Part shown: one piece after another, positions 29,702-56,657 of the stretch
Numbering within the stretch: position 1 is the stretch's first letter
How the letters are laid out: each line of letters begins with the position of its first letter
Origin: Pelagibacterium sediminicola
GTDB lineage: Bacteria > Pseudomonadota > Alphaproteobacteria > Rhizobiales > Devosiaceae
Reading direction: 5' to 3'
Assembly (NCBI RefSeq): GCF_003390885.1
Contig: NZ_QMEL01000003.1
Location: 186,001-250,000 of the forward strand
DNA: 64,000 nt
Notes under the pieces: generated by a model
Seen by the model: only the letters and a program-made list of their open reading frames with translations
Database searches by the model: none
Told to the model about the DNA's origin: nothing
Position numbers and translations under genes: made by a program

Positions 29702-29746
29702 TTGCGGAACATTTAAAGAACACGTATAAGAGTTCAGCCTTTGTTC
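29702..29746 (+). promoter_or_regulatory. lexA promoter with two SOS boxes
   Basis: Promoter TTGCGG (29702-29707), 17-base spacer, TATAAG (29725-29730). One perfect alphaproteobacterial LexA site GAAC-N7-GAAC (29707-29721) fills the spacer and a second, GTTC-N7-GTTC (29732-29746), lies just downstream of the -10. Both orientations are equivalent as the site reads the same in reverse complement. LexA binding would block polymerase, giving autoregulation. Confidence 0.9.
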
Positions 29747-29777: not shown

Positions 29778-30485
29778 ATGCTCACGCGAAAGCAACACGA
29801 TCTGTTGATGTTCATCCATGAGCGGATGAAGGAAAGCGGCATTCCGCCCTCTTTCGATGAAATGAAGGAGGCGCTGGATCTCAAGTCCAAATCGGGCATT
29901 CATCGTCTCATTACCGCGCTCGAGGAGCGTGGCTTCATCCGCCGCCTGCCCAACAGGGCGCGGGCGCTCGAGGTGATCAAGCTTCCCGATTCGATGAACC
30001 CCTCATTGGGCGGGCGCCGGGCGCGGTTCGAGCCCAGCGTCATTGAGGGCAATCTGGGCAAAATACCTCCGCATGCCGCCGGTGCGGACAATGATGCAGG
30101 CCACTCGGTAGCGATTCCCGTCATGGGGCGGATTGCGGCGGGCGTGCCGATCGAGGCGATCCAGACCCATTCGCACACCATTTCGGTCCCCCCCGAAATG
30201 CTGGGCGGCGGCGAGCATTTTGCGCTCGAAGTGCGGGGCGACTCGATGGTCGATGCAGGCATTTTCGATGGTGATACCGTGCTGATCAAGAAGCAGGATA
30301 CCGCCGGAAACGGCGAGATCATCGTCGCGCTGGTCGATGACGAGGAAGCCACCCTCAAGCGCCTGCGCCGCAAGGGTGAGACCATTGCGCTCGAAGCGGC
30401 CAATCCTGCTTATGAGACCCGCATCTTCCGGCCCGACCGGGTAAAGGTTCAAGGCCGGCTCGTGGGGCTGATGCGCCGTTATTGA
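29778..30485 (+). CDS. lexA: SOS repressor LexA
   Basis: 235 residues. The winged helix-turn-helix at 1-70 starts [17 protein letters not shown]. Self-cleavage is expected at Ala121-Gly122 ([11 protein letters not shown]). The catalytic dyad is Ser156 (RGDSMVDAG) and Lys194 ([11 protein letters not shown]). GAAGGGG precedes the ATG. It controls itself through the two upstream boxes, and by the same motif probably ssb, uvrA and the small peptide gene at 52.1 kb. Convergent with comEC, with coding ends overlapping by 7 bases. Confidence 0.98.
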
Positions 30486-51995: not shown

Positions 51996-52084
51996 ATTGG
52001 CGATTCTCTCTGGGCGGGCCGCTGCTTTCCTTTTGCCACTCCCCGCCCCCAAGGCCAACCATGGGCGCGGCTTTTGCACAAGGG

Positions 52085-52183
52085 TCAGGCGATATAGGCC
52101 AGCATGTCCATGTAAGCGAGCATGACGCCGCCGAAAACGGTAAGCGAAACCAGAGCCATGAAGTCCTTCACAATGGTCAGCAT
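52085..52183 (-). CDS. 32-residue SOS-controlled membrane peptide
   Basis: A very short gene: ATG 52183 to TGA 52085, 32 residues, starting MLTIVKDFMALV and ending MDMLAYIA. After seven residues the rest is one hydrophobic helix (SLTVFGGVMLAY in the middle), so a single-pass inner-membrane peptide. AAAGGAGG lies 5 bases before the ATG, among the best ribosome sites in the window. Its promoter carries two perfect LexA boxes. Size, hydrophobicity and SOS control resemble SidA, the 29-residue SOS cell-division inhibitor of Caulobacter; homology is not claimed. dnaE follows 89 bases downstream with no clear terminator between. Confidence 0.75.
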   Translation of the reverse strand: MLTIVKDFMALVSLTVFGGVMLAYMDMLAYIA

Positions 52184-52203
52184 GTTTGCCTCCTTTTGAT
52201 AAA

Positions 52204-52246
52204 GTTCCATGTTTGTTCTTATAAGTTCGTTATTTGTTCCTGTCCA
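52204..52246 (-). promoter_or_regulatory. SOS promoter of the 32-residue peptide gene with two LexA boxes
   Basis: Minus strand: TGGACA (52246-52241), 17-base spacer, TATAAG (52223-52218). Perfect GTTC-N7-GTTC boxes are at 52225-52239 (filling the spacer) and 52204-52218 (starting at the -10 edge). This arrangement is the same as in the lexA promoter. The remainder of 52247-52424 holds no gene that I recognise. Confidence 0.85.
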
Positions 52247-52424
52247 GATATAAATCCCGGCGGCGCCGGTTTGCCTAACGAAGAGTTAAGCGCGCGCCGG
52301 CTCAACCGGGATGGAAACGGGTTTGAAAAGAGGATCGGGAACGCCGCGGCCCTTGATTTCAGCCGCCGGGCACATCACCTCAAAAAAGACGAACCTGTTC
52401 ATGCCCCGCGAAAGGAGCGCGATG

Positions 52425-52742
52425 ATGAACGACGAGAACAAGGGCGGTCGGACCTTCACCGAGGAATTCGAGATCGCCGGGCACCAGTTGCTTGCGCACA
52501 TCAAGGAGCTGATCGCCGAAGGCAATGTGCGTACGTTGCGCGTCAAGACCAAAAGCGGCGACAGCTTTCTCGAAATCCCCCTGACCACCGGTGCGATCGC
52601 CGGTAGCGTCGTGGTGCTCGCAGCCCCTTGGCTCGCGGCCATCGGCGCCATCGCGGCACTGGCAACGCGCGTCCGGGTCAAAATCGTGCGTAATGCCGAT
52701 GACGCGGACGACCAACCGCCCGGACCCTCCGCCGAGCAGTGA
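52425..52742 (+). CDS. DUF4342 domain protein
   Basis: 105 residues. The segment TFTEEFEIAGHQLLAHIKEL, LIAEGNVRTLRVKTKSG, FLEIPLTTGAIAG and LAAPWLAAIGAIAALATRVRV matches DUF4342, a small family with a helical start, a beta-hairpin and a membrane-like hydrophobic segment; function unknown. ATG 52425 is 7 bases after AAGGAG; another ATG at 52422 is too close, and the frame is open from 52311 without support. The SOS boxes about 190 bases upstream could also affect it. Confidence 0.8.
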   Translation: MNDENKGGRTFTEEFEIAGHQLLAHIKELIAEGNVRTLRVKTKSGDSFLEIPLTTGAIAGSVVVLAAPWLAAIGAIAALATRVRVKIVRNADDADDQPPGPSAEQ

Positions 52743-52975: not shown

Positions 52976-53446
52976 TCAGAACGGAATATCGTCGTCCATG
53001 CCGCCGGACTCGAAGGCGGGGGCACTTTGGGGCCGCCCGCGGTTTTCGACCGGGCGTCCGCCGCCCTGATTGTAGCCGCCGCCATCCCCCTCGCCGCGCC
53101 CGTCGAGCATGGTGAGGGTCGAGTTGAAGCCCTGCAGAACGATCTCGGTGGTATATCTGTCCTGCCCGCTTTGGTCCTGCCATTTGCGGGTCTGGAGCTG
53201 ACCCTCGAGATAAACCTTGGCGCCCTTCTTGAGATATTGCTCGACCACGCGCACCAGACCTTCGGAAAAGATCACGACGCGATGCCATTCGGTCCGCTCG
53301 CGCTGCTCACCGCTGTTGCGGTCGCGCCAGCGCTCGGATGTCGCGATGGAAAGCTGGGCGACCTTGCCGCCATTGTTCAGCGTCCGGATTTCCGGATCGG
53401 CCCCAAGATTGCCCACCAGAATGACCTTGTTGACGCTTCCCGACAT
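52976..53446 (-). CDS. ssb: Single-stranded DNA-binding protein
   Basis: 156 residues: OB fold from [18 protein letters not shown] through [17 protein letters not shown], a flexible Gly/Arg/Pro-rich linker, and the acidic tip MDDDIPF that recruits repair and replication partners. It is divergent from uvrA, a classical SOS pair, and its promoter overlaps a LexA box. Confidence 0.98.
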
Positions 53447-53762
53447 AATCGACCTCTAAAATTTTCTTCGCGCCGGCACTATAGAGCCTAAACAAGCGCG
53501 CCGCGCCCCGCCCGTCGCGCTTATGCACAGTTTGCTCCGCACTTTTTGTTCTCAATATGTTCTTATGGGACAAATGTCAACAAACCCCGTTGACGGAATC
53601 ATACTGTTCTCATTATGTTCTAACTTCGGGTGCCCAAATTGCCGCGCCGCCTTGCGGCGTCACCTCGATGTGCTTATGTGATCCGGACGTGCGCCACGCC
53701 CGTGTCGTTTCCCGCTTCGCCTGTCGCCTCTTGCTGGAGGCTTTTGCTGCCTGGACCGCATC
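53447..53762. promoter_or_regulatory. ssb/uvrA divergent SOS control region
   Basis: 316 bases without a gene. Towards ssb: TTGACA (53580-53575), 17-base spacer, TATTGA (53557-53552), overlapped by GTTC-N7-GTTC at 53548-53562. Towards uvrA: TTGACG (53590-53595), 17-base spacer, TTATGT (53613-53618), overlapped by GTTC-N7-GTTC at 53606-53620. The uvrA leader has a hairpin CGCCGC-CTT-GCGGCG at 53645-53659. Each gene thus has its own promoter and its own LexA box. Confidence 0.88.

Positions 53763-56657
<2,895 letters not shown>

Follow-up and report, generated by a model that had tools for sequence, protein, structure and literature searches.

The 32-residue membrane peptide encoded directly before dnaE in Pelagibacterium sediminicola is probably a divergent SidA-type cell-division inhibitor, SOS-induced, LexA-repressed and directed at FtsW/FtsI/FtsN. 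Its frame is conserved as a coding sequence, its promoter is overlapped by LexA boxes, it has a fixed place before dnaE, and this place is the sidA locus of Caulobacteraceae. From these observations we infer LexA binding and induction, translation, membrane insertion, a block of division and the FtsW/I/N target.

Peptide gene and promoter

The first-pass annotation of the window (the whole 64,000-nucleotide stretch of DNA analyzed here) had described a 32-residue frame with a ribosome site in front of its ATG, encoding one hydrophobic helix, and a TGGACA-N17-TATAAG promoter with two exact GTTC-N7-GTTC boxes; each of these elements was found where it had been placed (Table 1). By hydropathy only, the peptide consists of one hydrophobic helix and a charged N-terminal collar. 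The sequence places predicted LexA boxes over the promoter, whose hexamers are separated by 17 nt, and box 2 occurs as GAACN7NAAC in 29 of 30 family loci: two exact boxes are unusual in the host family, and the double-site layout is general.

Table 1 Features of the peptide locus and of other SOS-related regions in the window
Feature	Position	Strand	Remarks
Boxes in front of lexA	29707-29721 and 29732-29746	- and +	LexA-box pattern
lexA	29778..30485	+	TIGR00498, 185 bits (cut-off 110.95)
dnaE (DNA polymerase III alpha, 1147 aa)	51995-48552	-	ATG 51995; conserved downstream neighbour
Peptide-dnaE gap, 89 nt	51996..52084	-	no T-run of 5 or more
Conserved stretch GGTGGC...TGGCACAAA	52031-52060	-	seen by eye in alignment
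TGTG[GC]A[TA] element	52072-52080	-	
SidA-like single-helix membrane peptide MLTIVKDFMALVSLTVFGGVMLAYMDMLAYIA, 32 residues	52183-52085	-	ATG 52183, stop ends 52085; GRAVY 1.58
Ribosome-binding site AAAGGAGG	52196-52189	-	SD-like motif in 30/30 family loci (lenient pattern)
LexA box 2 GAACAAACATGGAAC	52218-52204	-	shares one base with -10; exact in 3/30 family loci
-10 element TATAAG	52223-52218	-	read from sequence; TATAAG in 29/30 family loci
LexA box 1 GAACAAATAACGAAC	52239-52225	-	inside promoter spacer; exact in 19/30 family loci
-35 element TGGACA	52246-52241	-	read from sequence; TNNAC in 30/30 family loci
143-aa frame	52311-52742	+	divergent neighbour of the peptide gene
ssb	52976-53446	-	NCBIfam scan
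Two further exact LexA boxes	53548-53562 and 53606-53620		between ssb and the frame at 53763
Frame at 53763	53763	+	presumably uvrA

Seven exact LexA boxes were counted in the window against 1.72 expected, a number reached by none of 100 shuffles, and a pair of same-strand boxes at most 40 nt apart arose in 5 of 200 resampled windows. Over the whole genome, the pattern by itself is mildly enriched (57+46 matches vs 31+37 for the reversed pattern); because this enrichment is only mild, the boxes taken alone are weak evidence, and the case is carried by conservation. The product of lexA, encoded in the same window, is the presumed repressor of the peptide promoter. Together with the two boxes between ssb and the frame that we take to be uvrA, which look like the control region of a divergent SOS pair, the window holds three likely SOS control regions. 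The 143-aa frame diverging from the peptide gene gave no NCBIfam match at E up to 0.001.

A protein search recovered the peptide in 12 of 12 congeners (all E < 2e-7) and yielded matches in 109 of 136 host-family genomes at E up to 1, four of which (G041, G080, G102, G118) rest there on long unrelated frames; the true locus of G080 was found in the profile search of the order. Across 30 family loci, the first codon was invariably ATG, and the length was 32 aa in 28, the other two encoding 34 and 35 aa. The ratio pN/pS was 0.253 among the 13 genus sequences and 0.462 over the 30 family sequences, and third codon positions varied most (0.88, 0.52 and 1.28 bits per position). Residues K6, D7 and D26 are invariant among the host-family sequences. 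The peptide frame is therefore under purifying selection, as the dN/dS check proposed in the first-pass annotation now bears out. That annotation had also called for a search of relatives for the ATG, the ribosome site and the SOS boxes, and had held that loss of the frame in relatives keeping the boxes would speak against the gene. The relatives show the opposite: since ATG (30/30), SD-like motif (30/30), TNNAC, TATAAG and boxes are all conserved in the 30 family loci, the frame and its box-overlapped promoter are conserved together.

A 41-aa version beginning at an ATG inside box 2 was rejected in favor of the 32-aa start, because relatives keep the later ATG, which has a ribosome site. Pfam, NCBIfam and PHROGs contained nothing usable for the window peptide; rows for 4HBT, YmiC, PsaJ, SCO2097 and PHROG, obtained with the peptide or its relatives, were set aside because they fell short of the cut-off or had an E of 0.01 or weaker. 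Elsewhere in the same genome, a small membrane ORF with a good ribosome site (MARTLIQMSIAGAAGAVMLTMMVTIMTFTGAFA; L005, G000:C2:55988) lies 107 nt behind a LexA-pattern match, with the end of a similar small hydrophobic frame apparent just ahead of it. This ORF is probably unrelated to the window peptide.

Occurrence before dnaE in the host order and beyond

The peptide gene lies directly before dnaE on the same strand, a feature by which we would define a wider group of SidA-type loci. The dnaE gene, which we take as such from its DnaE motifs, begins further upstream, at a GTG, in the open-reading-frame list. In the host family, same-strand dnaE followed directly in 49 of 49 loci (L009-L057; 43 distinct places). 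A profile built from 20 family sequences (A1) and searched against 397 genomes of the host order matched 70 genomes at E up to 0.1, including 21 in the host family. Among the 49 matching genomes outside the family, 29 were examined (L058-L086, of which L085 and L086 were set aside as chance matches), and both an exact LexA box near the ORF and a dnaE within about 0.65 kb downstream were found in 25 of 29 distant candidates each. In L061 (G218) and L069 (G177), which have both peptide and LexA box, the same-strand dnaE is reached only after 1.6 and 2.5 kb, so that the pairing tolerates intervening sequence. Three loci from different families (L070, L072, L080) have a common stretch, CAAACTGAGACACTACC, immediately ahead of the peptide promoter.

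We also evaluated the arrangement by position only. A dnaE gene was located in 110 of 111 order genomes and the upstream region examined in 69 of them, mainly from the top of the list, with a number of known positives left out and a few remaining (e.g., L302, L303, L304, L322, L326, L314). In 33 of these 69 regions, counting L305, which looks like chance, a hydrophobic ORF of 22-60 aa lay behind a box; with L305 dropped as a chance frame, the arrangement was present in 19 of 36 sampled families of the order. Under strict criteria (exact box, ATG, SD, hydrophobic ORF), 32 of 69 regions were positive, compared with 0 of 69 reverse complements, 54 of 3800 trials on resampled downstream sequence, and 2 of 76 other LexA-pattern places, one of the latter being sidA itself. 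Known members missed by the strict test were L303 and L304, which have no exact box, and L322, misplaced at a contig end. Hydrophobicity is not a result of this test, since it is part of the criterion.

Outside the host order the start criterion was relaxed, and 8 of 26 and 10 of 60 dnaE regions (L160 dropped from the second set as a chance frame), spanning nine families, showed the arrangement; these 86 regions were chosen from 278 better-scoring hits, with small genomes mostly left out. Most dnaE regions outside the order had no exact box. Three further genomes examined alongside this set belong to the host order, and two of them were positive.

The sidA locus and relatedness to SidA

The published accounts describe SidA as a 29-residue, SOS-induced inner-membrane inhibitor that acts on FtsW in C. 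crescentus (PMC4211646), and attribute filamentation of a C. crescentus lexA mutant to sidA expression (PMC4211646, PMC12700426). There, sidA is listed as CCNA_02004 (PMC10769358) and dnaE as CC1926 (PMC1839093). Among named Caulobacterales genomes collected via PopZ, dnaE was found in 9 of 10, and in all nine of these Caulobacteraceae genomes an ORF of 29 codons begins about 118-149 nt before dnaE, once with a GTG start, and reads M(I/V)RIARESLALVSVxxFVWMMCxVAQLVA in type. An exact LexA box accompanies this ORF in 7 of 9 genomes, and the two Caulobacter dnaE-leader ORFs that were scanned match the curated model NF033228 (div_inhib_SidA) at 74 and 72.7 bits (cut-off 35). A MAG of Caulobacter vibrioides (G797, 95% PopZ), the nearest to C. 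crescentus NA1000 among the genomes reached, yielded neither dnaE nor the peptide, probably due to gaps.

A second Caulobacteraceae set gave matches in 29 of 30 genomes at E up to 1, all but G797, from which 27 loci were read after dropping four rows (contig edge, partial match, second copy, internal stop). In 27 of 27 loci the ORF was followed by dnaE, and 26 ORFs read as 29 aa, the remaining one (L277) being misread at a contig edge. Exact boxes lay within 90 nt in 13 of these 26 loci, with near-matches in the rest. Twenty of the 26 ORFs start with ATG and one with GTG, and five have no start codon at that position: in L291, L293, L296, L297 and L299, the first aligned codon is GTT, GTC or GCT, and the start must lie elsewhere, perhaps at the second codon. 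Given that the ORF there has 29 codons, matches NF033228 in the two cases scanned and is followed by dnaE, sidA of Caulobacteraceae is the gene before dnaE, which is also the position of the window peptide.

Sequence comparison provides moderate support for common descent of the window peptide with SidA. Aligned with 11 SidA rows by hhalign, profile A1 reached E 4.7e-5, probability 68 and 39% identity over 18 ungapped columns from residue 1, and only these first 18 align. A family HMM scored 5 of 7 SidA rows higher than any of the 146 control membrane segments and two within the control range, the absolute scores of the five being low (5.6-14.7 bits vs 4.4 for the best control). With the same HMM, 7 of 13 peptides from other families (f42 being in the host order) beat all controls, namely those of f154, f118 and f156, two of f60, and one each of f104 and f42, and six did not. 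The SidA model gave one f104 peptide 20.5 bits, short of the cut-off. A shared pattern, [DE]xx[small][hydrophobic]x5F, was present in 23 of 31 order ORFs (shuffled mean 0.8, maximum 4), in 5 of 5 SidA rows and in the window peptide, but in only 3 of the 19 ORFs from the set outside the order, with the caveat that it was defined once the sequences had been seen, on related rows and partly hand-trimmed ORFs.

Even at E up to 10, NF033228 itself did not match the window peptide. It exceeded its cut-off of 35 bits in 0 of 136 host-family genomes, and none of the matches listed there corresponded to the window dnaE locus; among 14 control genomes, one was over the cut-off, and Caulobacter vibrioides was among nine with any signal. 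Because this model finds no family genome over its cut-off, we regard the peptide as a SidA-type variant at the sidA locus and not as an NF033228 member. The analogy with SidA first drawn from size, topology and control hence extends to the locus and, moderately, to homology, and stops short of the curated model. Specifically, both peptides are single helices of about 30 residues with a [K/R][D/E] collar at residues 6-7, and both are encoded directly before dnaE (for SidA, in Caulobacteraceae), behind LexA boxes or near-boxes. They differ in length, the window peptide having 32 residues and not the strict 29 of SidA, in recognition by NF033228, and in the C-terminal half, where SidA has W-M-M-C and the window peptide family Y/W-x-D.

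Proposed action, alternatives and significance

In an undamaged cell, LexA would occupy the two promoter-overlapping boxes and keep the promoter silent; after DNA damage, LexA would be cleaved, the promoter would fire and the 32-residue peptide would be made. With its one transmembrane helix and short N-terminal [K/R][D/E] collar, the latter presumably cytoplasmic by the positive-inside rule, the peptide would enter the inner membrane and hold the late divisome (FtsW/FtsI/FtsN) inactive until the damage has been repaired. A membrane peptide that holds FtsW/I/N inactive upon LexA cleavage is the model published for SidA (PMC4211646), and we would carry it over to the window peptide by analogy. 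The N-terminal half is common with SidA; the C-terminal half diverges, and we speculate that it may have co-evolved with the local FtsW.

Other small inhibitors offer partial parallels. The window peptide gave no match to SulA (PF03846) in Pfam at E up to 10, and the one PF03846 match in the same genome (23.9 bits vs a cut-off of 23.1) lies in a 253-aa ORF (L400, G000:C44:110407) that resembles ImuA. SulA was accordingly rejected as the inhibitor of this genome, the match being barely over the cut-off and inside this ImuA-like ORF, and the case calls for caution when SulA is annotated automatically in alphaproteobacteria. SulA is a soluble inhibitor of FtsZ. It resembles the proposed peptide in being an SOS-induced division inhibitor (PMC4211646). 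DidA of C. crescentus is likewise a small membrane inhibitor at the FtsW/I/N step, differing in its 71 residues and in its induction by DriD, not through LexA, as that source describes it (PMC4211646). YneA, SosA and ChiZ, the Gram-positive and mycobacterial damage-induced division inhibitors, are also described as small membrane proteins acting on septal wall synthesis (PMC13396833); yneA and chiZ are stated to be unrelated to sidA (PMC4211646), and we set them apart by this description only.

An unlikely alternative is that the frame is a leader peptide or upstream ORF tuning translation or transcription of dnaE, with residues that matter little beyond being translated. The ORF does precede dnaE wherever it was recognised, and T-runs in the gap reach five or more in 0 of 30 family loci and four in two, so that read-through into dnaE stays possible. 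The consensus fold of the gap, matched by only 1 of 200 column shuffles, is weak (-4.1 kcal/mol), and a strong RNA attenuator was rejected on this ground even though the fold stands above the shuffles. Moreover, the amino acids are conserved and not the frame alone, the spacing between the ORF and dnaE ranges from 26 to 288 nt and amounts to kilobases in L061 and L069, and the ORF at the same spot in Caulobacter is the division inhibitor SidA.

The gap contains conserved sequence of its own. Just behind the peptide stop, the TGTG[GC]A[TA] element was present in 23 of 30 family loci (L009-L038) against a shuffled mean of 0.39, reading TGTGCATAA, which resembles a DnaA box, in part of the genus and TGTGGATTG in other genera. 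In L033, L034 and L037 it forms TGTGGA-N17-TATGAT, and dnaE therefore possibly has its own promoter too; the element may serve as that promoter or as a site linked to replication. The second conserved stretch in Table 1 is common to the window and its genus relatives.

It is similarly improbable that the peptide is a small membrane toxin comparable to TisB or DinQ, induced in the SOS response, depolarising the membrane and favoring dormancy. Small size, hydrophobicity and LexA boxes are features of that class, and the window peptide has all three; the invariant K6, D7 and D26, the sidA locus and the moderately supported homology to SidA argue against it. DinQ is a described example (PMC3567139). 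We consider very unlikely a third possibility, in which this membrane peptide at the sidA locus shares its ancestor with SidA and has come to act on another divisome, envelope or repair-coupling target. It would fit the restriction of the SidA alignment to the first 18 columns and the low confidence of the model that places SidA itself on FtsW TM7, as reported for that model (PMC13396833), and is countered by a place, box layout, near-identical length and N-terminal half that are all as in SidA. Finally, an accidental ORF beside genuine LexA boxes whose only target is dnaE, conceivable where short frames are common (85 frames of at least 25 aa over 8 kb), is rejected as next to impossible by the purifying selection, the 12 of 12 congener matches, the ATG in 30 of 30 loci and a position-only test with a chance rate of 54/3800.

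A SidA-type division inhibitor thus stays the preferred reading. Known SOS division inhibitors are described as unrelated genes, with sulA homologues in gammaproteobacteria, sidA in Caulobacter and others elsewhere (PMC4211646). In the accessible portions of the open literature searched, no SOS division inhibitor is described for alphaproteobacteria outside Caulobacter, nor any SidA relative outside that genus or a sidA-dnaE arrangement. The locus provides a concrete candidate inhibitor gene in 19 of 36 sampled families of the host order and nine sampled families outside it, at a fixed address before dnaE where short-gene cut-offs could hide it. More tentatively, as a serious possibility that we would stop short of calling probable, the SOS promoter may drive a two-gene unit of a SidA-type division brake and dnaE, a pairing that would be an ancient alphaproteobacterial device with Caulobacter sidA as one branch. 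This raises the question of whether the replicative polymerase is co-induced with a division brake; if so, dnaE itself would be part of the SOS regulon, and one switch would both stop septation and raise the replicase after damage.
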